This document shows positions 52-36,381 of a DNA stretch of 64,000 nt, one piece after another. Source of the DNA: Neelides folsomi. Taxonomy: Eukaryota; Arthropoda; Collembola; Neelipleona; Neelidae. The stretch lies in NCBI GenBank assembly GCA_034687125.1, contig JAQGBZ010000117.1:1-64000 (forward strand), in the 5' to 3' direction. The position numbers and the translations under genes are program-made. Each line of letters starts with the position of its first letter. Position 1 is the stretch's first letter. Below the pieces are notes generated by a model that was not told where the DNA came from, ran no database searches, and saw only the letters and a list, made by a program, of their open reading frames with translations.

Positions 52-178
52 GATGTTCCCATTTTGTGGTACATTTTGGGTCCGTCATCGATACCCTGAC
101 CCATTAATTCATAGCTAGGACCCATTCAATATTAAGAATTTAAATTATTTATAAAAGTTAAAATTCATTTAATTATAC

Positions 179-3100
179 CAGCTCTTGAACGACGAATTCT
201 TCCAAATAAGTTCTACAAAGTCTTCGATCCCAATCGTCGGTGATGTGGCCTCCGTACATGATTTCTCCAAAGAGATACCGAAGATCTTCCCATGGAACTT
301 TATTATTCGCTTCCAAGTAGTTATTGAGAACGTTGACGCAAATGGTGAGATCTCCCGTGTTGAAGGGATAAACTCTGTTCCAACCCTGAGTTCCAAACTT
401 CATTCGCTCCGTAACACAAGCATGGAAATAACATAAGGAGAAAAGAACGGCTTTGAACTCCAATTCCTTTGAGCATTGGTCGAGAGTTTCTTGATTGAAG
501 TTGTCAATAGCTTTGTGAAGATTGGCCAACATTCCGGATGGAGGCTCATTTGTGATTTTAATTGATGACTCCAAAATTCCCTATTTAACAATCATAAAAG
601 GAAAATTGATTAGGTATATTTGAAATTACTTAGGTATGATACAGTCACTTTAATAAAAGAAACTATGTATAAAATGAACTTAATTAAGTAATTAAATTCA
701 ATTAATTAAAAATATATTGCGTGGTGTATCATTAAATATTATTTAAATATTAATTTCAATCTACTTGAGGAATGATGTGATAATTAGGATCAGTAGCGGG
801 TTCAGCTGAAAGGAAAACTCTGTATTTTTTATTCGATTTCTCCCAATTCTGTTCAAGTTTCTTCTCAAGTGCAGGGAGCCATTTAGCCACAAGATGAATA
901 TTTTGAAGAATGACCCAAAAGCCTTCTTTGGCTGCAACATCTAGAGCGTTCTCGGCCACGACTTCTTGTCCTTGACCAAGAGACACGCTGAGTAAATTGC
1001 CTTTAGCAATTGTAAATCCAAGTTTCTTTCCCAAAGCTTCAACATCCTATAAAGGAAAGACGAATGAAATGAAATGACATTAGGAAATGTTATTTAATTA
1101 TTTAGAATTTATTTAATAATTTTAATTCAAGCGTTGTACCTTCAACGGATCCACACCGGGAGAAAGGATGAAGAAAACAGGCGTAGTGTTGGACGTTTCT
1201 TCAAAGGATTTAGCAAAGTCGACTCTCCTCGACTTCACGAATTTGCTCCCAAGAGCTTCTTCAACAAAGAGAGAAACGGCGTAAGTCATTCGATCCGGAC
1301 GAAGAGCTCTCATGATACAAAGACGTTGAACTCCAACTTTGTTTTTCCATTCCAATGGGAGTTTCTCTCTTTCAGGATTTTCAGCCTCAACAATTTTCTT
1401 CCAACGCTTAGCAGAGCCTTCAATATCGCGATCCAAATTCCTAAAAGTAATTAATAAATTAAATAAATTAACTTTAAACTTTCTTATAATTAATTAATTG
1501 CCATTCTTATAATTTATAGTTAATGTATTTGTCATTTTTCATATAAGATTTAAAGGAATTTGACTAACTTGTAATCTTCCATATTGGAAAGACTGACAAC
1601 AGCTCCCCAATTAATATCCGTAAGGAAATCGACAGGTGTCTTCACTCCCGGAGTGATTGGAAACCTCAACAGAAAATCGAGATCTTTGGGATTCACAACC
1701 TCTTTCTGAACTTGAATTTGGAAAGCCATGAGAGCCGTAAAGATGAGTTTGTCGCATTCGAATAACCCCCGAGTTGTGTAAACCCAAACGAAGAAGGTAA
1801 TTGAGTCAATGAGATTTTGAATTCTCTGAGGAATTGATTGAGCTTGAGGAGCCGCTTTAATGGCGTTTTGAAACACAGTCGAGAAAGCTTTAAGACTGAA
1901 TTGATAAATCGGATTGATTTTGTTCAAGTCATTGAGAATGAAATAAATGGTCGAAGCTCTTGAAGCAGCAGGGCGATACAATTCTCGAGCAGCGTCAATC
2001 TTGGTTGAAGTCACAACAGCTTCTTTGCTTTTTTCTTCTACTTCTTGTGCAGTTCGTTTGGTCATTTCAAGATTCTCAACAAGTGTTGGATCATCGAGAA
2101 AATTCCCTTTAGCGGATTGAAGACGAGTCAAAAGTTCATCTTCAAGTCTTTTAATGAGGATTTTAAATTCGTTTTGCTGTTTGGTCAATTGGGACTTTTG
2201 TGCTTCAAGATCGGGACGTTCAACTTTGACAACTTCAGCCAGCAATTGATCCTCCAGACCTTCTCTTGTGACAGTGAAGTTAACAAGCGTCGTTTGAGCT
2301 TGCATTTCTGGCTTATAATGTGGATTAGCGAGTTTGGTTTGAAGAATCAAACGGAAATTTGGATTGTAGTCAATTTCCCGATCGCCCATTTTAATTGCAC
2401 TGATTATATTAATTATTTCAAAGTTATAAAAGAAACTTTAATAAATAATTGTTCCTTAAAATATTTGTAATTTCTACTTACGTTCCCTTTCTGATCAAAT
2501 TTCGAGCCAAAAGCGGTTCCAAAACAGGATCGATGTTTTCTTGAATGTTCTCAATGAGCACCGTATGACCTTTTGAAATGGCCTAAATACAATCCAAAAT
2601 TAATTATGTAAATCCAATAAAAAAATAACAGTGAAATTATTATAAAATGATTAGAAATGTTACATCTTCAATGACTCCGAGATAATCCTTCTGTCCAAGT
2701 CGTAAAACTTTCAATTTTGATCCATACATGTTTTTGATCCATTTAATTCCTTGAAGCTAAAACACAATGAACGATATTTCATATTAATAAGTGGCCTTTT
2801 CAATAGATTTCAATCTAAAGTTAACTTTATAAAATACCTGTGGGTCAATCATTAAAGGCCAACGTTGAGAGTTGACAAGAATTGTGGCATTTTCCGAAGA
2901 CATTCTGTCGCTCGGGAGTCCAAAATTGTTCCATTCAGCAATCTCGGCATCATCCGTTAGTTGAAACAAAGGATCAACGGCAGGAGACATTGGAATTGGT
3001 GGCTAATAAATTGAAACAATTAAAACACCAACACCAAACCCAGCATTTCGCAATTTTACCTGTATTTTTTGCAAATAAGGTGACCAATGTTTATCAAGGA

Positions 3101-3198
3101 GATCATTTCGATATTTCTTCGTAAAGCAACCAACATAAGAGACGAAAGCTGTGACAAGTAACATGTCTCCAGGAATTGTTTTTGTGCTTGCACGATAG
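179..3198 (-). other. Dynein AAA5-AAA6 and start of C-terminal domain, coding exons 37-44
   Basis: Exons: 3198-3060, 3002-2838, 2756-2664, 2582-2482, 2399-1569, 1440-1140, 1046-765, 580-179. AAA5 has [20 protein letters not shown] and [16 protein letters not shown]6 has [40 protein letters not shown] and [20 protein letters not shown]. Exon 44 carries [16 protein letters not shown] and ends EEFVVQEL at a donor, so the final C-terminal domain is outside the window. Positions 1-178 are the start of the next intron. Confidence 0.96.
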
Positions 3199-6100
3199 CT
3201 TTAAAAACACAAAGTTTTCCAATTTATGAATCTATTCATTAAAATTATAAATTAAAATTTTTAAATTAAATTAAAAATTACTTGATGACGTTTTGGATCC
3301 ATCGATTCTTTTCAGCTCCGAGTCCCCCAACAAGTCGATTGGCAAGATCAATAGTTTTCGCTGTTCGGTCAGCGTCTGCTTGACATTTTGCTTTAGCTGC
3401 CGTTGCTGCTTCAAACTCTTTGGTAAGGACAGTCAATTTCTCTTCGAGTTCCTAAATTCAAATTAGGAAATTTAGAAGTAGAGACAGAAGCTAATTATCT
3501 TTTAAGTTTTAAAAACAGTTAATCAAAAGTTCAATTAAATAAATATTTGTTAATCAACCTTAATGCGCTTTTTGAGGTAGGTAAGTTTGCTAAGTGCGTG
3601 ATTTAAAGTATCTGTGGCTTCTTGGAGTGCTTTACGCTTAGGAGCCACATCTTGGAAAACGTCGTTAAACTTTAAGACGTTAATGACATACGAGCAGAGA
3701 CCTATTAATAGCGAATAAATTAGTATCTGTATTTTACTCGTTGCAAAATTAAATATCATCTATAGAAATCTGAATAGTTTTTGATATTATTTTTTACCTG
3801 CAGCAGCTGAACTCTTTGACCTGATGAGTTCAGGAAGAAATCCAGGATAGTCAGTATAGGGCTTCATAGCTTCAGTCATTGCCGTTGTGATCTTCTCTTT
3901 ATCCAATTTTTGAAGACCGTCCAAAAACTTACTAATGTCAGACATCATCGACGCCTATGAAAAATTATTATTTAACAAAAAATATACAATGATGACAATA
4001 TTCAATATTTAGTTACGTGGTACTGCTTATTAACTGCTAATTAACTTAAAACATTCATTGACGTTAAATTAAAAATTTATTAAATTGACCTTAGCGGCTT
4101 TCCATGAAATATCTTTGGGGATTTTTCCAGTCCTCGTCCCTTCCCATAAGATATAAACGGCCGAAACGACTTTGATAACATCAGGTGGCGGTGTTGTGAA
4201 TGTTTTCATCTCGGTCAAATTGCTTTTATTCAATGTATTAAGAGCAGCGTAGGCGGCTTGAAGTGCGGGTTCTGCCTTTTCCAACTCAATTCGACAAACT
4301 TCCTTGATGACAGAAACGTCCTTTGCCACAACTGCGACTTTTTTCTCTTCCACTGCAGCAGATTCCTTTTCTCCGCTCACGGCCGTCGTTTCTTTTCCAA
4401 CAACTTTAATAAGATGTTCAGCTTTGTCATTCTTCTCTTTGAGCACAACTTCTTGTGTGGCCAATACTTTCTTAAGTCCTTCGACTTGCTGAGCACAAGA
4501 TTCAAGTTTCGTTAAACCAGATTCAAGTCGATCGGCTCTTGACAACGCTTGAGTGTGTTTCGCCGTTACAAGTTTCCCATACAAATCAATTTGTTCAAGG
4601 AAGGATTTGGGTGTTGTGTAGTTGTATCTTTTCTCGTTTTGCAAATATGTTTTACTCATGCTTTGTACGGCCGAATGGACAAAGGCCATGAACCGAGCAA
4701 TTGGATCATGAAGGGCAAGAGGTAAAACTTTGATTTCCTTCACGAACCTTTGACTTACACTCATGAGAGCTTCATGAGGCCAATCATAAAACCATATGAT
4801 TTGACTGCAATTGACAACAGCAGGGAATTTTCTTGAACGATCTCGCAGTGTTGAGCCAACAGGTGAGAAACAAAGGATGGTTTTTAAAGTCTTTCGTACA
4901 CGGTCAATGTAAAACTTCCAGCAATTCTCTCTTGTATCCTGAAGTCCCACGGATTTTACCTAAAGAAATTAAAAAAAAGAGTATTTAGATAAGATAATCA
5001 TTTATAAATTCATAACTCGTACTTAAAGTTAGTCGTAAAAGAGGAAAATAATTTTAGTATATTAATTAAATAACTTACTTCTCCTCGCATAGTTGTAATC
5101 ACGTTTTCAACTTCATCATCAGGAAGAAGATCTGTGATTTCACCAGATGCGAGCATGTCATTAATGAGAACAAGGAATTTCTCTTCAGCAACTTGGGCAT
5201 CAGTCATGAGGAAAACGCTTCCAATATTTTTCATTCCAGCTTTAAGGTAAAGAATCGCAAGATCCGACTTAAGCTCAGCCAATCCATAACCTTTTCGAAG
5301 AGCAATTTGAAAAACGTCAAGACTGGAAATAAACGAAGCCAAACGAGCCAAACTTTGTTTTCCACTTCCTCCGACTCCGACCAGCAGAGCATTTCCTCTT
5401 GGAGATTCAAGAATTCGACTGATTCGGCAAATGTAATTGATTGCGTCGTCGAACAAAACAAGATTCATTATGGAATTCAGTTCATTGTACGTATTCAAAG
5501 CATCTTTGATAAGATTTTGAAGATCCGGGAAACTCGTTACAGGCATGTACTTAGGATCTCCCATTCCTTGAGCGTAGTGAAAGTAAATGAGCGGCTTCGC
5601 CATCACAGCGGTTTGATCCAAATCCTGAAAACGTTAAATAATTTTAAGACTTTTGATCTTAATTAAATGTTAAGGCATAAGCCAAACAAGCTTAACTATC
5701 TGTACAACAGGCGATGACTATCCAACAGTAACCAAAAAAAATTATCAGAATTTCATAGGTACTAGTCACTACTATTCACCGGCATTTGCGAAAGCGATTA
5801 TAATGCTAATTACCTAATTTGGCAATATTGTAGTAGCTAACTACCAACTAACTAGATTAGATAGATAAGATTGATGAATGTTCTAAAATCTATTAAAAAG
5901 GGTCTAACTACAGGTACCCACAGACGTCGTGACTTCGGGGAAAATCTCGTAGTGAAGATTATTTTTGGAAGATTTCATCTGACATCGTCAAGTGATGCAG
6001 TTAAGGAAGAGGGGAAAAGAGAGGAATAAAATTAAATTAACTTATTTTGTCTCAATAAGTTAAGATAATTTTTACTTTACAAATTCTATTCTACTAATTA

Positions 6101-9100
6101 TTTTACTAATTCTACATTAATTTCAGTAAAAAATGGTAATGGTAAGAAGTAAGAGAGAAAGTGAAGTACTAAAAGTAGACAAAAAGGTAGAAGAAGAAAA
6201 GGGTTAGAACATTTAACATCTTGTAATAGTAAGAGTTAAAAGTAATCAGAGAAGAGACAGAATTAAGATTATATAAATGTTGATTGAAATTTGTACAAAA
6301 TGAAATATTACTTCAAATCCTTTTTTGAGACATTCTTGGAGAAGCTTATTATAAGAAGCAATATCTTTTTCATCCACAAGTTTGTCACCGTAAACTCTTG
6401 TTGCTTCGTGCATCCAAAGTCGAATCAAATCCATTGGCTGGGCCAAACAGTCTTGACTGCTAAAAAGCATTCCCTAAAGAAAAAAACCAATTACTTAAAA
6501 TATCTCTACTTGATTGCAATTTTAATAAAATATCTCATACAATACAAAATTAAATAAGTTTAATATTCACCTGAAAAATGTTTGATAAATCTCTCAAGTT
6601 AAAAAGATAGTGGAACTTGATTGCAGTTGGAAGAAAGTTAGAAGCGACTTTGGCATGAAGTGCAAGGGCAGCGTTAATTAAGGCAGAACAAGTTCGTTGA
6701 ACTGGTCCAGGGATTTTGTTCAAAGGAGATTCAAGATGCTGCTCAAGAATGGAATTATAAATTGTCGTAAGAGCTTCATTTCCAGGAAATCCAACTGAAA
6801 ATGTGGCAAAGTGACGCTGAAGTCTTGGATTAATTGTGAAACTTCCAGCAGTTGGATTCATGCAGGCGACGTATTGGACATTGTGAATCTCCTTCAACTG
6901 GATCTTAATTCTGTCATACCAATGGTGATAATCCATATGTTGACGAATGAGCGTATGAGGTTGAACAGTTCCATAAGAATCAACCTGAAATAAAAATTAT
7001 GCATAAGAAAAACCAAACTAAATTACTTAATTACCAAAACGTCAATAATATTTAAAAAATAAAATTTAACCATTGGCATATTCATGTCATCAATGAAGTA
7101 GATGAGCTTTTTGTTACCCGGTGGCCCATAATTTCTTCCGGCTTTCTTTTCAAGTGGTTTTTCCAACACTCTTTGCAACATTTCTGAAACAATTTAAAAG
7201 ATTTTAAATAATAGAATAACTATTTGAATAATTATTAACTTTATTAATATTAATTATTCAAATTTTGAATAGTAATGTAAGAAAAATAATATGTTGATTT
7301 TTTAATTATTAAGATAAACTTTAAAATTGATTGTGCCAATTATAAAAATAATTTATTATTAAGAAATTAAAAAAATGTTAAATATATATTACCAGATGTT
7401 GTGTAGAAATTAAATGGTACATTTGCAATCGCGTATGATTCCGGCAAATTTCCCAGTTTATCTCCCACAAGGACGGTTTTTCCTGATCCAGCATTTCCAA
7501 CAAGCATCACTGGATGACCCTTTTCCATGAGAGCATCAAGGAAAAACTTGACTCTAGTTGTTTCAGAAGTTGGAACGAGTGCAGCTTGCAACGGCATGTC
7601 GGTTTCGAGTTCAAACTTTTGCACCAACTCTGTCCAAGGATTCCATTTCTTTGTCTCTGGATCAATGTAATAGTCAAAGACAGTGCCGGCAGTAGGAAAT
7701 TTGATGTATTTGAATTCCGATTGCCACCATTTGGAAAAATCGGCTCGATGATCAACAAGCTATGTCACAATAAATTATTAGCATTTAATGAGAGAAATAT
7801 TTAACGTTTTTAAAAAGTAGAATTTACCTGATCTTGATAAGTTGCAGATCCAAAAGCCCAAACACAGCAAAAGACGAAGTAAATTTCAAACCATTCTTTT
7901 GGGCAATCCGATGGACAAGACTCGGGCGTGATGGAGATTTCAAGAAGATTACACAACAGCTCAATGTATGCAATTTCCGGAATTGGAGTGATCTTTGAAA
8001 ATCGGAATTTCACTACTTCAATGACGGTGGGAATGTATTTCTCAAAGAGAATTGTGAGATTAGCTTTCTCTGAAGAAGTTTCCCTTCTATCGATCCAACT
8101 CGTTACATAACTACACACAAAGATCTTTTAGCAACTTTGATTAATTTAGCACCAACTAGAGTATAAAATAGTAAAGAAATAAAATAACTTACGGATTCCA
8201 TCCCAGATCAGATGGATTTAAATACAAAATTCCTAAAAATCAAATAATGTTAGTATTTGCAAATAATACAAAATAGTGTTATATGAATAATTTTCATCAT
8301 TATCAAGCCTCTTCAATTTACCTGCTCGAGACACCTAAAAACCAAGAAAAATCATAAAATTAATTGTGATGTTACAAAATAAAAATGTTACTACCTAATT
8401 ATTTTTGCTATTGCTTACAGTGGCAGGCGTTGCAGTTTTGAGGGTCCAAATCTCAAAAATCAGTCTCATCATTTTTGTAAGAGCAATACGTTCATTACTG
8501 GCCAAAGTCAGAACTTTGTTATCGTCCATCACAGTGTTAAGTGACTCAATCCACATAGGATCAATATCACCATCCAAAATGATCCATTTCGGTCCGTCTC
8601 CAGTCAAATTGGCTTGATCTCTCATAAGCACCGATAACAGACCTGGAAAGTTTAGCGTTATTAATTAAAGACCATTTTCATTTACATAAATTAACGCAGT
8701 TTAGGTCAAATATTATAGTAGCTAAATCATTTAAGTTAAAACGAACCATCTTTCCATTCTCGAGTCGATTGATTAATAACTCCAAAAAGCTCGTCGTTCG
8801 TAACAGCTTTGGGATTGAGATCGTTGTAAATGGGCTTTCTCTTCAAATTGTGATGAGTTTTATAGAGAGCTTTCCAAACCTATATGAAACGTTCCCATTT
8901 AGTTATTAGCTTTACCAATTAATTTTTTTGTAAATCAAGATAATATTATTTCTTAAAACATTATTTAAGGTTTATATTTTCGCATAGTGCAGTTTATACC
9001 TGGGATTTTCCAGTTCCAGCATTTCCAATGATGAAAACAGAATGCCTAACATCAATAAGCTCTTGGAGCTGTACAACTTTCATTACGAAGTTATCCTCAG

Positions 9101-12100
9101 GTTGGAGCTTAAGCTGAAGAGAAGCAATTTTAATAGCTTTTTCAAACTCCAAATCTCTCTTTCTTGGAACATCAAGGGCAGGGAAAAGATCTCCAATCAA
9201 TCCCATGAAGACAGGCAAATCGTCAGACACAATTTTTGGAGTATTGAAATCACGAAGAGCTCTCATGAGAACTTGATCTTCAGGTCGATCTGGATCACTT
9301 CGCTAAAATACATAAGATAATTAAATAATTTAAAGGTAATATTACAAATCAACCCTTTACATGTAATATTAAACACTTGACAAATGTTTTACCTTCAAAG
9401 ATCCAGCAACGACAAGCACAGATTTGATAGCTCGGAGACCCCAATCGTAATGGTCTTGCTTAGAGAGGAGTTCCTTACACAGTGTGTAAAGCGTAATGAA
9501 TTTCCTCGCAAGAAGTCGAGCGTCTTGGAATCCTTCGGCCACCAACATGATTTCACAAATGAGTTCAAAATCAGGAACGACCATAGCACAAGGTCTAAAG
9601 AGTGCTTTTAAATTTTCAGGAAGCTCAGCACGTCCAGCATAACCAGGATTCATTGTAATGAAAAGACCTGAAAAGATTTAAAAAAATTTATAACATCTTG
9701 TTGCATTACGATTAATTCGTAATTAAACGTTTAAACTTTTTCAATTTAAACATAATATAATTTTCATAGAAAATTACCAACTGTAGGTACAAGGTTGATC
9801 TCTTCTCCCATAAAGTTAAATCTCTTCTTTTTATCGCGGATAGCATCTTGAACGCTTTTTACCTATGTATATTAATAGAAAATTTTTTAATTAACAAAAT
9901 ATTCTTGATCTTGATTAGATATTCTAATTGCATCTTATAACTTTAAATCAGTTTTTGTCTTACTTGAACTGCAACGACGGAGAGTACTTCAACGGAGATA
10001 CGATTGAATTCATCAAAACAACCCCAAGCTCCTGTTTGAGCCAACCCCTTCACGATGTTTCCAACCGATTTATAATCCATTTGCTCGGAACAATTGAAGA
10101 CGTAAACCATCATACCAAGAGCCTTGCCCAAATCTGTAAACATATTGTTTTGATTTTATTAGCGATTTATAAAATTTATTATGAATATTACTAAATTTTT
10201 TTAAATAAGCAATTAATAAATGTAGAATTTAATAACCTTTTGTTGTTTCAGTCTTTCCAGTACCAGCGGGACCTGCTGGAGCTCCACCCATGATAAGATG
10301 GAGTGATTGTGTGAGTGTAATATAACATCTAAAACAATTAAATTTTTAAAGTAATCTGAACTATTACAAGCACTATATTTTGTAAAATTTACCTGTCAGT
10401 AAGAGGAGTAATAACAAGACGCGGTGTATTGCCAAGATATTCGTACCAGTATCGGAATTGAGCTAATAAAAAATTAAGTATTAATGCCAATTTAAGTATT
10501 AATGTTATTATTAATTCTTAGGAGTTGGAACAAAACTACTAATTATTTGATATTAAAATTTATATTAACAAATAAAAATAAAAGTTTGAATGAATACCAT
10601 CACAGATATTTGCAAAGCAATCTGCTTCATTATCATCCCACCGGTGGCGAAGTTGCGATTGCCATTGGAAAGCATTTGCCGTCTCAATCTTAAACTGAAT
10701 CAATTTTATGATGACATCTCGAGAATGGACATCAATTGTACAAACAGTCATAATCTTCTGCCTCTCTTGAGCCGTCAAATTCCCAATGAGAAGTCCAATA
10801 AGAGTCGCGAGCTGTTGGACTTGTTTTCGATTGTAATCCTTTAAAGCGTTTTCGTATCCTTCTTCTATCTTTGACAAAGCCACGTTTACTTCTGTCGTCC
10901 ACCAGATTTGAGTCCCACAGAGAGCAACTTGGGCCGGATATTCTTGAATCCATTGCTCACGAGGTTTGTCCTCGTAACAATTCACAGCCTCGGCTAAATA
11001 ATATTTAACTGTGGACTTCATGCGGTCTTCAAGTCTGTTCAACCAAATTTCAACAGCTCCAACACAATCACAAGGGCTGTCAAGATCAACTTTCTCTCCA
11101 TCTTTCGCATGCATTCTTGTGGATGTTTTCGTCCCTGCGTTGAAGTCCAACTTGGCCATGGAGTCGAAGAGTTTGACCAAATGACGACAAACAACTTCGG
11201 GATTGTTTCCATTGGACAGAATATCAAGAAGATCCACAGAAGAAACAAAGTAGAATCGGGGAAAGGCCAATCGTTTCGTTTCGAGATATCCAGCTAAAGC
11301 CTTTTCGCAGATGGCAAGCTCTTTTTGAAGACGTTCAAGTTCGGGCAATAATCCTGGTTGGTTCGTTGATTCAACCACATTACGTGTTTTCAACATTTTT
11401 TGCAAAACTTTCTGCAATTGTAAAATAAATAAAATTACAGATAATTACATTGAAAAGCAGACAAAATTATATTGTAAAGCCGTATTATACAAAATAAATC
11501 CCAACCTTAAAATCTTTATCGATTTGATCGAATCGAGCAGCATCTTGAGGAAGATTCTTCCTGATGTCCTCGGTTGCAATAAAAATTGACTCTAAATGAG
11601 ACCAAGTTCGCTGAACTTCTCCGAGAGCTGAAAGTACTTGATCGGCCGTAAAAAGACGATTCTGCCAGTATTCAACTTGTGTAGCGAAAAACGATATGTA
11701 TTTTGAAAGAGCAATGTTCTGCAATTGAACTTGATTGTCTTCAAGGGTTTCAATCAATTCCTCGGAAGCTTTTATTAACTTTGTCCCAGTACGTGGATGA
11801 ATTTCTAAAAAATCAAAATACATTAGAAATGATTAATTAAAAAGTATAATACAATACAATAGAAATGCCAATATCAGTATCAGTGTCATTGCATTTTATA
11901 AGTACCAATCTCATATTCCATAGTTGACCAAGTTACGTCTAATTCTTTGAGTGTCTTTTCCATTGAACTTTCCTTCACAGCTTTGTCTACAATGTTTTTG
12001 ACTTCCTGTATAAATGAAAACATATTGGCATGTTAAAAACGACTAATACCTGTTTAATAATTTATTCAACTTACATCTTCATAATTGTGAAGATTCAGGC

Positions 12101-15100
12101 TCAGAAGATCTGCCAACGTCGTTTTATCATCCATGACGAATTTTTTCTATAAGTCATAAAATTCATTTAAAGCTTGTCGTTAAAATCAAATAAAGACTAA
12201 ATTATTAAGCGGCAATTTCTATCAAGGGTTTGGAATACCCAAATACATTTTGCATTAGATTAGGCCTTAAATTAATCATGCAATTTAACAGTGAACAGTG
12301 AACATGAAAAGAATTTCATATCAATAAAAATGCATGCTTATGATGAATAACGTTCATTAAAACTTACGATGAGTCGCGGCATATAAATGGGATCAATCTT
12401 GCGCAGCATTGAATAAATATTTAATAAAGTAAATCCTCAGAATTTGCATATCACTAATTAATACCTTCGTGGCAGCCATAAGCTCTTGCCAATGTCTCTC
12501 TCTAATTGAAGAATTTTGAAGTTCAGCAACTGATTTGAGCGAAGACGTCATGTTTCTTATGGTGGCGTCTAAAGCAGTGTAAAGTTCCCATCCTTTCACA
12601 TCTTTATCCATTGCTTTCACTTCCTTCGCCATCCGTTTACATTCCATGTCCATGTTGTCAACATTGATATTCTTCCAAGGACTCAACTTCCATTCGTCAA
12701 TTGTAGAATGAACTATGTACGTGTAATCCCACAATTGTTTCAAATATCTCAATTCCTTTCGACATTGTTTCAAAGCCTTTGGATCAGGAACATGAACTTC
12801 AAACAAAGCAGCCGCATCACAGATTTTCTTATATTCATCTTCAAGTTCTTTCATTGCATAATGAGCTTGATCAATTTCCTTGTATGGAAATGCACAGTTT
12901 GATCTATTCAGAAATATAAAATTGGTTAATTTTAAAAGACCATAAGTTTGATGATTTTTAAATATAAAATTTCCTAATAAGATTCATTTAGAATCAATGG
13001 GTAGTTTTCTTGTTGTTTTTATATGTTTAAAGTTAAGTGACTTAATATGTAATTATTTTAAAAATATTTTGTTTTTACTTAAATATTGGAAGTTGCTTGA
13101 ATTTTTCTCTGTATGCGTTCTGCTTGGTGTCGAAATCTGAAATTCGTTTTCTGATAGAAGACACTTCTTGAGCTTGAAGTGGAGCCACGGTGTGTTTCGT
13201 TTGAATAGCCGTCTTTTTAAGATTCGTCCATTTTTGAGGAAGTTCGTCAAGTTGAGAAAAGACGCTTTCCGGCATTTCATAGTCGTAAGTTTTGAGAAGC
13301 TCGATGTATTTCTTAATGGGTTCAAACATGTTGTCTGTTTCTTGTTCTCTGTCTTTGATCTTCTGAAGCCAACTCATAACTGCGATGAGATTCGCTGTGT
13401 CGCCTTCACGAAGGGGAAGACTCAAACCAGCCTCAGCTTCTTTGATAAACTTATCCAGATCTGACAAACTATAAAATAAAAACATTTTAATTTATAATTC
13501 ATTTAATTACAATTATAGTATAGTGTTATATTAGGTTCGAATAAATAATATTAAGGTAGTTTCTATTATTCAATATTAAATATACCCTCCAATAACAGAA
13601 TCAATCATGTATTGTTTGAACATGAGACTCCATTTCTTTGCATTGCTTAGCAGAGCTTGTCTGAAAGCTCTCATATCAAGACGGAACCATCGTTCGAAAA
13701 TCACTTCTTGTTGAAACTTTTCAACTTCCAAATACAAATTTTCATATTTGTCAATCTAAAGATGAAGTTTTAATCAATCATTTAGATCACTAATATTTTC
13801 AAACAATTATAAATATTTGTTCATGTAAAAATAATTCTTATAAACTTACAGCTTCCTTAAATTGAACAAGAGTGGCTGGTTGTTTCGGTGGTTCTTCCCC
13901 CATTGACTTGGCTTCAATTTCTTCGTTAGTGAGTTGATGACCATATTTAAGAAATTGGGCCAAGTAATCATTTCTGTCATCCTCCCAGAGAAATGAGTAC
14001 GGTTCGAATTTCTGGGTATAATCATAAGCTTGATTCATCACAAATTGAACTCGCTCTTCCACATCAGCTCTCATGTCGCTCAAATCATCATTTGATTCAG
14101 TGTCAGACTAGAAATTAAAATTGATTAAAAGTCAGTATTAACTATTAAATAATAGATTATTTAACTTAAGATACTATAAAATTCTTACAAGATAATTTTT
14201 AGATCCACCCATTTTAACTCTGTCCATGACTGTAGCTTGATGAAGAATGTCTTCTAAAATGTTCTCAACAAGTCCAATGAACGAGTTAGAAGCACCAGGA
14301 TCGAGATTCGGTTCAAATACAAGTTCATTTTCTCCCAGTTCCATTTTAATTTCCATAAATGCAGAAGGAGTCAAGCCAGAATCAGTGTGATCAACCATGT
14401 AGCCAAATCTTTTTCAAAATTACATTATTAACACAATATTTAAGTTTTACTTAATTCGAAGTTAGATCTGATTAAATCAAAATTCATATAAAAAAACTTA
14501 CGAAACTGCACATGTTTTAACGAGTCCACTGAGAACAATTTCATCGATATACATGAGATAATTGCTCCAAACTTGTGGACTTGTTCCGTCTTCATAGATT
14601 TGATCTTTGTTATGTTCCACAAGGTCTCTAATTTTATCTGAAGCCTCTTTGATTTCCACGTACCGTTTCTCTTTCTTCATATGAGCGTGATCGTCAAGAC
14701 AAAGGAGTTGATCCTTTCTTCCTTCTTTTCGTTCGAAGAGGGGAGTTTGCAACCATGAGTCCATCAATTTCTTGATAGCATTGATATTGTCTTGAGACTT
14801 TTGGAGTTTTGCTTCTAATTCGACAACTGGACCCTTTAATTTTTCGGTGTACTCCGCAATACCTGAATTATTGTAATACAAGTTTATGAAAAATAATGTG
14901 AGGAGACCAAAAGATATCGAAGATAAAATATATTCTAGAAATCTATAATAATAATTAATTTTAAAAATAAAAAAGGTGTTTTAATAATATACATTATACA
15001 TAATTTAATTAAACAAAATTGAATTTATTCAATGCGCACCTTCCGATTTCCATTTCAAGTTTTTCTCTCCTTCTTCAACAAGTTTATTGATGTCGTTAAT

Positions 15101-18100
15101 TCTTTTCTGAAGGAGTGCTCGCTCTTGAGGATTACTTCCACTATGGATTTTATTGTAAAGCCGAGCGACCAAATCCAAATGAACAAGATTCTTACGAAAA
15201 TCTTCTTTCTTAGCGTAAAGATCTTCAGCAGGACCAGGAATATTGTCAAAGCCAAGCAATTTCATATATTTAACTTCCTTCAATGCAGAAGTTAACTGAA
15301 ATAATTGAAAACAATTAAATTTTTTCTTTAGTAAATTAAAGATAAAACTGAAAACTGTATTAAACTGTCTGCCTTTGACTTGGTCGGGTCAAGTCAAGTT
15401 AACCCTGAATTTCTTGGCAAGAGAATATAAGACAAGACAAGAAACAATGAAAGTCCAATTTGAAAGTATGTGAAGTAATCCGTAGAAGTTTGATATTAAT
15501 TCTATTTTTTTCAATGTCTTTCTGTTCAATTCACCTTTTCAATTTCAAAACTTTTTCCGTTCCATTTTTAACGAAACTATCTTTGTAATTAGTAATTAAA
15601 GGTAATTAAAGGGAGACAGTTATATTAAATAGAAATAAAGTTGTTTTAAATATGAACCTCGGCATTAAAGTTGACAGAAATCGTATGAGCATCTTCTCTT
15701 GAAATTAAATTTTCTTCCAAATATCCTCCAGCTTCTTTGTTCATTTTGTTCACCCATTCTTGGTTGGTTTTCTTTTGGAACTCGGTGAGGATTCCATTGA
15801 GCTCTTCAGCCTTCTCCAACATCACTTTGGTCTCTTCTGCTTCTTCAATGGGAAGTTGGAGAATTTTGAAGTGTTCGATGGCTTCGTCAGCTTGCTCCTT
15901 CTTTCCTTTAGCCCAATAAATTGAAGAGGAATAGGGAGGAATTGTTTTATGGGTCATGGCCCGATCAACGGCTCTTGGATGAGAAACAATGTGTTCATCA
16001 TAAAGTTCCTAAATATTTATTAGATTAATTAGAAAGATTGAGATAAGATATAGGAAATAATTGTAGTTTAAATAATTTTAATTAACTTTTTATAAATAAA
16101 TAAATAAAAATTAAATAATGTACTTTGATATGATCCAAATCTTTTTCAATCATTTCGACATATTGAGGATATTTTGGCTCCACATCTGCCTTAATGATAG
16201 GCCTATCCAAGAGACTTCCAAGGACCGTGATGAGTTTAAATGTCGACTCGGGGGTATGACAATCATCGAAAGCATTTGTGATGATGGCTGAAAGACGTTG
16301 GTCAATGTCGGCTACTTTCTCTTGGAATTTTGCTTCATCGGCTTCAAATTCCAAATCTTCGGGATCACCACAATCATAATGAACTCCTCCGAACTTCGTG
16401 TAGTATTCAGCAAATTCAGTATAAAGCTCAGCCATTTTTGCACTCAAGACTTTCCCCTTTGTTCCGCCAAAATCAATCTTTTCCAACTTGTAGAACTCGA
16501 CCGACGTTTCAAAAAAGTCCTTAAGCTTCTTGAGTCTCTCAAGAAACTTGTCATATCTCTTGAAAACGAGATGGGGAAGAAAATCCCAATTCTTTGGATC
16601 CGCTTCATCATCAAAATAAACGGGAAGTTTGGCTTTGTGCTCATCATAAAGGTCACGAAAATATTTTAGCGTGTCATAAGCGACTGTGACTTTGTGAAGT
16701 GCATCTTCCGGCTCAGATGAGAAAATTCCCGAACCTCCCAAATATCCTCTGGCTAATTCAATCTTAAGATTGCAGATCTCCTGAAGGAGGACGATGATCC
16801 GAGCGGCTGAACAATAATATCTGGAATGTCCCCATACAAGACACACGCAATGCATCATGGGTCGGAGAAGAGGTTTAATCTCGTCAAATGGCTCATTTTG
16901 AATTTGCTCCAAATGCTTTCTCAGCGGTTTCAAATGGACGAGGATGTCTTGAGCTTCGGCTAAAGCTGCCACTACGTTTCGAAACATTGCTTTGAAACAT
17001 GGCCAATATGTTGAGCCAGTTTGTTCCAGGATTGTGGCGATTTTCCTCACACGGTCTTGATTCAATTGTTCGTAGATGCACTGGAGGTCTTGAACGCGTT
17101 CTTCCCAGAAACTCAACTCGGCCCATGGACTTGGATAATTGTTCCCTTGAAGGGCCTTCGATGAATCTTGTTTTAAAACTTCATTAATCTGCTGGCTCCA
17201 TTTGATAACCAATGACTCAATTTGGGTTTTGAGCTGAAGATCAACTTCCGCAGAACCTCTAAAATTGGTGTGTCCCATATATAAATTAATTTAAATTAAT
17301 GATATTGATAGAAATATTAATTATTTTAAAGTTTACTTTCTATAATTAATTTGCTAATGAGTTAAATAAAATATTTGTTTCGTAAAATAAAAAACTCAAC
17401 CCATCGAGAACTCTTTGTTCATTTGAGTCAATGACGTCCATATTCAAAGGCATTGGAAGAAGCGTCTTTCCTTTCATTTGGCCCTGCACCGAATAGAGAA
17501 CTCCGCAAATCTCTTGGGTATGCTGCTTGACGTCAGTTATCACTGTCTCTGGCCATTTATCTTGATTTACGTCAGCGGATACAATGGGAGTTATCACCTG
17601 AATTGAAATTACATTATTAATGAAAAATCAATGGTTAAATTTAAAAAAAACATATGGAGTAAATGAAAAAATTAATTAATTATTTGATTTTACATCTTCA
17701 ATGAATGTCACTAAATGATCAAGACTTTGATTCGCAAGATCACCGTAGATAATATATTCTTTTAAGGGCACTTCTTCCCTTGGAATCCTCATGGGATGTT
17801 TCTTGATGAAGTAACAAGCTTTTGTTTTAGGGTTAGCAGGAAATGTTTCCGACATGACCAACATTCCCCCAAGATTCAAATTAGCGATTAACATCTGGAA
17901 ATAAAATATATAAATTGAATTGCACATATTTATCATTTAAAGATGATTGTCCCATATATGTGACGACGCTTAATTAAATGTTTAATCTTTTAACCTATCT
18001 GACATTTAGTTATTTATATAAAATTGGTATAATATCAATTTAAAAGTTTTTATTAAACAGCGTATTCTGTTCACTTACAAGCATGTCTTCTTTGTCCAAG

Positions 18101-18252
18101 AAGTCGTTCACCACTTGCTTGTGCTCCTCCGTTTGAAGCATCTTGATCCACTTTTCTGGTTTAATTTTAAGAGATCTTGTAATATAATCGAAGAGAAAGT
18201 CCATCCGAAGATCGGCCCCTGGCTCATACCCAGAAGCATCTTTCGGACCCAT
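179..18252 (-). CDS. DNAH9/11/17: Axonemal outer-arm dynein heavy chain, beta class (C-terminus beyond left edge)
   Basis: This is the force-generating heavy chain of the ciliary outer dynein arm. It hydrolyses ATP to slide doublet microtubules. Forty-four coding exons, all GT-AG, join into 12381 nt (4127 codons) with every exon phase matching. Family length is about 4460, so roughly 330 C-terminal residues lie past the left edge; the last exon in view ends at 179 with donor GTATAA. Walker A motifs: GPAGTGKT (residues 1855-1862, AAA1), GNAGTGKS (2136-2143, AAA2), GNAGSGKT (2463-2470, AAA3), GVGGSGKQ (2810-2817, AAA4). AAA1 Walker B is CFDEFN at 1905-1910. The start at 18252 (AAAAATGG context) is preceded, across a probable 5' UTR intron, by an in-frame TAA. 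Phrases such as [15 protein letters not shown] and [17 protein letters not shown] match the beta class (Drosophila Dhc93AB, vertebrate DNAH9/11/17) rather than the gamma or inner-arm classes. The three vertebrate paralogues cannot be separated here. No frame damage is seen. Confidence 0.97.
3282..4959 (-). other. Dynein stalk and microtubule-binding domain, coding exons 33-36
   Basis: Exons: 4959-4090, 3954-3798, 3701-3559, 3451-3282. Exon 33 (residues 2910-3199) ends AAA4 with [20 protein letters not shown]. It then has the long, Lys/Glu-rich outgoing coiled coil (about [10 protein letters not shown] to ALQAAYAAL) and enters the microtubule-binding domain ([13 protein letters not shown]). 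Exons 34-35 finish that domain ([19 protein letters not shown]). Exons 35-36 form the returning coiled coil, ending [17 protein letters not shown]. This domain grips the B-tubule in an ATP-dependent way. Confidence 0.95.
5079..6473 (-). other. Dynein AAA3-AAA4, coding exons 31-32
   Basis: Exons: 6473-6312 and 5624-5079. Exon 31 encodes [20 protein letters not shown] through the end of AAA3. Exon 32 carries AAA4 with Walker [10 protein letters not shown] and Walker B-like [10 protein letters not shown]. The intron between them (5625-6311, 687 nt) is the longest in the coding part of the gene. It holds only AT-rich and purine-rich sequence, and I see no gene or structured element in it. Confidence 0.95.
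6571..8879 (-). other. Dynein AAA2 remainder and AAA3, coding exons 23-30
   Basis: Exons: 8879-8747, 8642-8419, 8334-8322, 8232-8193, 8110-7828, 7759-7393, 7183-7071, 6984-6571. AAA2 Walker B is [19 protein letters not shown] in exon 24. AAA3 Walker A GNAGSGKT is in exon 28 and its Walker [11 protein letters not shown] in exon 29. Exon 30 has [22 protein letters not shown]. Exons 25 and 26 are only 13 and 40 nt, yet together they encode a very conserved AAA2 segment ([18 protein letters not shown]). AAA3 nucleotide binding regulates the AAA1 motor in this family. Confidence 0.96.
8322..8334 (-). other. 13-nt coding microexon in dynein
   Basis: The minus-strand exon GTGTCTCGAGCAG encodes V-S-R-A plus the first base of Gly. 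It is flanked by a TTTTAG acceptor (AG at 8336-8335) and a GTAAAT donor (GT at 8321-8320). Splicing exon 24 (ending TATPAT) to this exon and then to the 40-nt exon 26 rebuilds TPATVSRAGILYLNP, which is near-identical to the same stretch in vertebrate beta dyneins. Skipping it would shift the frame (13 is not a multiple of 3). The reading is therefore forced by frame and by conservation. Confidence 0.93.
9000..10462 (-). other. Dynein AAA1 and start of AAA2, coding exons 17-22
   Basis: Exons: 10462-10393, 10328-10237, 10133-9964, 9862-9778, 9667-9393, 9302-9000. AAA1 is the main ATPase site. Its Walker [12 protein letters not shown] is in exon 18, and exon 19 carries [15 protein letters not shown] and Walker [28 protein letters not shown] in exon 21 is close to invariant across axonemal dyneins. 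Exon 22 ends just after the AAA2 Walker [10 protein letters not shown]. All catalytic residues visible are intact, so an active motor is expected. Confidence 0.96.
12147..12464. other. Dynein intron over 300 nt with a decoy exon-like stretch
   Basis: This 318-nt intron lies between coding exons 12 and 13. The flanking exons join in phase to give [18 protein letters not shown], exactly as in the family, so nothing coding is needed here. A stretch ending at 12368 (…MPRLI followed by a GTAAGT donor) looks exon-like, but no convincing acceptor or homology supports it. Confidence 0.75.
15296..15657. other. Dynein intron over 300 nt, no content recognised
   Basis: This 362-nt intron lies between coding exons 5 and 6. 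It is AT-rich with a few short GTCAAG-like direct repeats near 15380-15440. I see no open frame, RNA or mobile element. Confidence 0.8.
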
Positions 18253-19397: not shown

Positions 19398-20473
19398 TTA
19401 TTCAGGCTCCTTTTTGAACTGTGCTCCCCTGTCATACACAATCACGCCAGTATGAGGAAGGTCAAGGTGAGGTTCAGCGAACCCGGCTCCGTTGTTCGCC
19501 CCATTGTTGTCAAAACCCTGTGGGGGAATGTATTGGGCATGTGGTGGGGAAACGATGACAGAGTCTGAAGATGGTCTTCGCCCGGTTGTGTATTCCTTGG
19601 GCAAATAGGCTGCTTCGTAGATTCCACTTCCGCCAATGGCTGCTACACTTGTGGATGACGACGGGGGAGGAAACGTGAAGCCGGTAGATGAAACCGATGC
19701 ACTTCGAGGAGTCTCGCTGCCTTCTTCGTCTCCTGCAACATCCGGAACGGTTTGGACAAGATGCTTCAAAAAGTCGAACCGCTCATCTCCCATTATACAT
19801 TGTTTCCTATAATTAATATTCAATTAATCATTTGAAAGAACAATAAAATACTAGGATGTATGTAGAGGATGAACGAGTTAACTAGAACAAATGAACTATT
19901 ATTTTAAAGAGTTAAAACATTTAATGAATTAAAAAATACTAACAAATGAGACGGCGTTAGAGTTTTAGCGTTCCTCGAATGTGTGACCGTCTCTGCTTTC
20001 TTCAGTAAGGACTCTACAAAGAGCTCAAGGGCTCGAGGTAATGAGGCGGTTAAGGAAAATTTTATAAGATGTTCATAAATTACGAAATTTTAATTTGAAG
20101 TCAAGCTCTGTATTAACTACACTAGCCTACTAATGCATAAATTGATCAATAGCTATTAGCTTATATTAATAATTATTAGCTTATAAATTAAAATCGTGTT
20201 TAAAAGGATATAGATTATGACAGGAACAGCTTGGGCCACTTTTCCGACTTCTTCATCACTCTGCATAATCTTCTTGATCCTTGCCTAAAACGAACCATAG
20301 TTGAATATTAAAACAATTCACGACATAAACAATAGTCATAATATAACTAAAAATATGAAATGAATTGTTATATTATATACTTTAATATATTAATCATGAA
20401 TGTAAATGAGGTAAAAGTTTCAAGGACTCACAGGAGGAAATCTTGCATTATACTTCTTCTTCTTACTCGGCAT
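19398..20473 (-). CDS. DRAP1: NC2-alpha / DR1-associated protein 1 (DRAP1)
   Basis: This is the alpha subunit of negative cofactor 2. It pairs with NC2-beta (DR1) through histone folds, clamps TBP on promoter DNA and blocks TFIIA/TFIIB. It acts in the nucleus. Coding exons: 20473-20432 ([14 protein letters not shown]), 20284-20212, 20037-19944 and 19806-19398 including the TAA, giving 205 residues. The histone fold covers about residues 8-85: [55 protein letters not shown], then [15 protein letters not shown]. These phrases align nearly residue for residue with human DRAP1. The rest of the tail is rich in Ser, Pro, Gly and Asn and ends QFKKEPE; it does not resemble the acidic, Pro-rich human tail. 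Introns 1 and 3 are GT-AG; intron 2 is AT-AC. The gene is divergent from POLR2H. Confidence 0.96.
20038..20211 (-). other. U12-type AT-AC intron in DRAP1
   Basis: On the minus strand the intron opens ATATCCTTTTA (from 20211), which is the full minor-spliceosome AT-AC donor consensus. It ends CATTAC (AC at 20039-20038). A perfect U12 branch-site match TTCCTTAAC lies at 20057-20049, putting the branch A about 12 nt from the 3' splice site, inside the usual 10-16 nt range. No GT-AG alternative keeps the frame. Using these sites restores PVII-S-RALELF across the junction (Ser codon T|CT), as in human NC2-alpha. Length is 174 nt, phase 1. Confidence 0.95.

Positions 20474-36381
<15,908 letters not shown>

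Follow-up and report, generated by a model that had tools for sequence, protein, structure and literature searches.

Gene content of the window and layout of the NC2-alpha gene

The window, i.e. the whole stretch of 64,000 nucleotides of Neelides folsomi DNA that was analyzed, carries on its minus strand a predicted four-exon gene, whose assignment to NC2-alpha (DRAP1), a general transcription repressor, is supported by the similarity of the deduced protein. The four joined exons encode 205 residues without an internal stop codon. Residues 1-75 match the entry 1jfi_A, "NC2 alpha chain" (E 1.1e-35), in line with the gene name given in the sequence-only reading that preceded this analysis; the chain in 1jfi is human. 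The Pfam family PF00808 (CBF/NF-Y histone-fold family) covers residues 10-74 (E 5.9e-21). The exons, introns, and splicing elements of the gene, in the direction of transcription, are:

20432-20473, minus strand: exon 1, encoding 14 residues
20285-20431, minus strand: intron 1, GTGAGT...TAG, ordinary GT-AG, 147 nt
20212-20284, minus strand: exon 2, terminating in ...VPVII and base 1 of the Ser39 codon
20038-20211, minus strand: intron 2, AT-AC, probably U12-type, phase 1, 174 nt
20202-20211, minus strand: 5' splice site of intron 2, ATATCCTTTT
20049-20057, minus strand: putative branch-site element of intron 2, TTCCTTAAC, complementary to AAGGAA of the U12 snRNA match in the assembly
20038-20039, minus strand: terminal AC of intron 2 (3' splice site)
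19944-20037, minus strand: exon 3, rest of the Ser39 codon, then 13 residues given
19807-19943, minus strand: intron 3, GTTAGT...TAG, ordinary GT-AG, 137 nt
19398-19806, minus strand: exon 4, through the stop codon, inclusive

A search of the assembly gave five matches to NC2-alpha, three of which are exons of the window gene itself. The other two are distant (36% and 41% identity, on contigs C55 and C21), and the frame on C55 resembles NF-YC when inspected by eye. A second copy of NC2-alpha was not found in the assembly.

The gene is flanked by a head-to-head neighbor on the plus strand, of which one exon (21127-21199, 24 residues, followed by a GT donor) was recognized; the start codons of the two genes are about 650 bp apart. 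We take this exon to resemble the RNA polymerase subunit RPB8/POLR2H; a Pfam search with its 24 residues gave no match. On the other side, a multi-exon gene encoding a dynein heavy chain occupies positions 173-18252 of the minus strand, with a probable start codon at 18252 and Pfam matches to DHC_N1 (16085-17290) and to dynein D4 (AAA_8; 5010-5630). Rfam gave a single match in the window, a mir-317 microRNA precursor (29772-29862, plus strand, 61.5 bits), located in the stretch from about 22 to 64 kb, in which two tested open frames had no Pfam match.

Motifs and borders of intron 2

Intron 2 has a G+C content of 25% over its 174 nt. Its donor at position 20211, ATATCCTTTT, is an exact match to the U12-type consensus ATATCCTT, and the branch element is an exact TTCCTTAAC, the two As of which are 13 and 12 nt upstream of the intron end. 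The 3' end reads TTCCTTAACCGCCTCATTAC with the terminal AC. An AT-AC intron at 20038-20211 of NC2-alpha had been proposed from the sequence alone, and its coordinates, donor, branch site, and terminal AC proved correct to the base. The intron was also said to interrupt the histone fold. This is confirmed by its phase 1 position, which splits the Ser39 codon after the first base, within the PF00808 match.

The frequency of such motif combinations was determined by a search for an exact ATATCCTT or GTATCCTT, followed by TTCCTTAAC 40-1000 nt downstream and by a suitable intron end, AC or AG. If no mismatch in the branch element was permitted, the motif pair occurred once in the window (both strands), at 20211, compared to an expectation of 0.05 derived from 40 dinucleotide-Markov sequences. 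When one mismatch in the branch element was allowed, it was still observed once, with 0.6 expected per window. Taken alone, the pair of donor and branch motifs is moderately unusual, not overwhelming. It becomes compelling because it coincides exactly with the point at which the NC2-alpha reading breaks.

For the comparison with other borders, all splice pairs with donors from 20264 to 20085, introns of at least 30 nt, and any terminal dinucleotides were considered, as long as the reading frame was kept open. This applied to 4,889 pairs, including 20 GT-AG, 14 GC-AG, and 27 AT-AC pairs. The claim that only the AT-AC sites keep the NC2-alpha frame therefore fails as worded, but is valid for the conserved VPVIISRALELF, which is kept by a single one of the 4,889 pairs, namely the AT-AC pair 20211/20038. 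In ungapped identity to 1jfi_A, the same pair ranked first with 60 of 69 positions (products of fewer than 69 residues were left unscored in this ranking). Six pairs with different ends came next with 59 of 69; they shift the register and replace Ser39.

These data bear directly on the possibility that the true intron is of the GT-AG or GC-AG type with other borders and that the AT-AC match is due to chance. Although the 20 GT-AG and 14 GC-AG pairs leave the frame open, none of these 34 keeps VPVIISRALELF. Thirty of the 34 products fall short of the 69 residues that exons 1-3 encode, the other four are longer owing to inserted residues, and the longest GT-AG product (20221/20024) lacks VIISRALE. 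The GT-AG and GC-AG alternatives were rejected because none of them keeps the conserved helix, and an intron of this kind is considered highly improbable. It is likewise very hard to reconcile with the sequence that this AT-AC intron is removed by the major (U2) spliceosome. AT-AC ends alone do not fix the class of an intron, and at least one human AT-AC intron needs the major spliceosome, as stated in PMC2831892. However, in sodium-channel genes the AT-AC introns of the major class carry G at position +5 according to the same paper, whereas intron 2 has C at +5 and its donor and branch motifs are those of the minor class, for which reasons a major-class AT-AC intron was rejected.

The remaining explanation, a pseudogene or an assembly artefact with an intron that is not used, can be given hardly any credence, since the frame of 205 residues is intact once spliced, the NC2-alpha protein is highly conserved, and the window gene is the only NC2-alpha locus found in the assembly. 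Intron 2 of this arthropod NC2-alpha gene is almost certainly a U12-type AT-AC intron, a rare kind that is removed by the minor spliceosome. This class is well supported by both motifs, the conserved protein, and the match of the assembly to U12 snRNA. Intron 2 shares the donor, the branch element, the short distance from the branch site to the intron end, the AC end, and phase 1 with the U12-type AT-AC introns, and no tested sequence feature distinguishes it from this class. Of the four minor snRNAs, three had no match in the assembly in searches that scored few of the candidates.

Searches for minor-spliceosome components in the assembly

The search covered 75.1 million bases on 840 contigs. 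A single Rfam match to the U12 snRNA was obtained (G000:C105:6128-6270; L001 1501-1643, minus strand), which scored 53.3 bits with a cut-off of 53, a margin of 0.3 bits. So small a margin may be a sign that minor snRNAs have diverged in this lineage. Of all 12-nt stretches in the introns of the NC2-alpha gene, three in number, the branch element pairs best with the U12 segment GAGUAAGGAAAA. The duplex has a computed energy of about -8.7 kcal/mol, which was matched by 0.35% of 20,000 random 12-mers from the plus strand of the window. In the lowest-energy duplex, AAGGAA pairs with UUCCUU, as expected. The textbook geometry of the U12/branch interaction includes a bulged branch A; in the computed duplex, pairing continues 5' of the branch element and takes in the first of the two As, leaving no bulged branch A.

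The prediction that this genome keeps U11, U12, U4atac, and U6atac was borne out for U12. No Rfam match to the other three was obtained in the assembly with about 1% of the first-look candidates scored (U6atac, 46 of 4,017; U4atac, 48 of 3,761; U11, 39 of 8,297). None of the 14 control genomes gave a match to these RNAs, so that there was no positive control for U6atac, U4atac, and U11. A U6atac core pattern with up to three mismatches matched 29 times, compared to 73 matches of the reversed control pattern, and an Rfam scan to E 0.1 of all 29 regions (8 + 20 + 1) revealed no U6atac. A human U6atac sequence used as a DNA query did not match the assembly either.

Among the proteins, CENATAC is required in human cells chiefly for minor introns of the A type. 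Its family (PF14968) had no match in the assembly, with one candidate scored. The zf-U11-48K family had two matches in the assembly and was also detected in one of the 14 control genomes, a prokaryote. This zinc finger is also present in GTSF1-type proteins, and at one of the two loci (C10) a second zf-U11-48K-like finger was recognized by eye in the adjoining open frame. For these reasons, neither match was counted as a minor-spliceosome protein. The prospero domain (HPD), which was sought for its known minor intron and which is generally expected in every arthropod, was missed too (no match and no candidates in the assembly), suggesting an incomplete assembly or a low sensitivity of the search.

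In 75 Mb, 39 matches to Chitin_bind_4 were counted, which point to an arthropod, and only two weak ones to PBP_GOBP (odorant-binding protein), which would suggest an insect. Together with the missing prospero domain, the small number of odorant-binding-protein matches may mean that the assembly is incomplete or that the gene set is unusual.

Because few candidates were scored, none of the control genomes contains these RNAs, the U12 match is marginal, and prospero was missed, the negative results for U11, U4atac, and U6atac say little and are not to be read as loss. One reading of them would be that the minor spliceosome of this lineage is heavily reduced (CENATAC absent; U11, U4atac, and U6atac lost or strongly diverged) and nevertheless removes a minor intron of the A type from a gene for general transcription. 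We regard this as very unlikely; gaps in the assembly or a lack of search sensitivity account for the missing CENATAC, U11, U4atac, and U6atac more simply.

Predicted splicing of intron 2 and comparison with other animals

Based on established knowledge of the minor spliceosome, the U11/U12 di-snRNP would recognize ATATCCTTTT and TTCCTTAAC together, U4atac/U6atac.U5 would join next, and intron 2 would be removed as in other animals. Retention of the intron leads to in-frame stop codons after residue 56, and formation of the full NC2-alpha protein should therefore require minor splicing. A dependence of the NC2-alpha output on the minor spliceosome is plausible from the gene structure, and it is a reasonable assumption because of these stop codons and because no second copy was found.

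The gene itself is not new to the minor class. In mouse, Drap1 is one of five U12-intron genes that were chosen from a U12 database for a study of embryonic stem cells and the neural cells derived from them (PMC3695530). For four of the five genes, this study, which took its primers from an earlier paper, found that U12 splicing did not differ significantly from one cell type to the other. The likeness of the minor intron of mouse Drap1 to intron 2 consists in the gene being the same, as the two were compared at the gene level. The surprise that the sequence-only reading implied for an AT-AC intron in NC2-alpha is not warranted, and intron 2 appears to be an ordinary conserved example, because the gene was already listed with a minor-class intron in mouse. 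PMC3695530 was the only paper on DRAP1 and a U12 intron among the matches listed in our literature search. No paper pairing NC2alpha or CG10318 with U12 was found, and none of those listed for NC2 and Dr1 mentions "U12-type introns".

For the fruit fly, the table of 19 U12 introns in PMC2831892 does not include NC2-alpha; nine of its 19 rows are AT-AC, where the running text says eight. Relative to this set of 19, Neelides folsomi appears to keep a U12 intron in NC2-alpha that the fly is without. Because NC2-alpha is absent from the 19 fly introns, the simplest reading would be that a minor intron of ancestral animals has persisted in Neelides folsomi, as in mammals, whereas fruit flies have lost it. 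The share of AT-AC among U12 introns is given as 8.6% for the honeybee, 8.3% for the malaria mosquito, and 47% for the fruit fly in PMC7367187. A complete or nearly complete loss of minor introns is reported for two copepods, two mites, and three midges in PMC10639083.

Our knowledge of the U12-type class is not changed by intron 2 of NC2-alpha. The intron provides one clean data point on the retention of minor introns in an arthropod, in a gene that is absent from the fruit-fly list, and also a possible marker for the activity of the minor spliceosome in Neelides folsomi.
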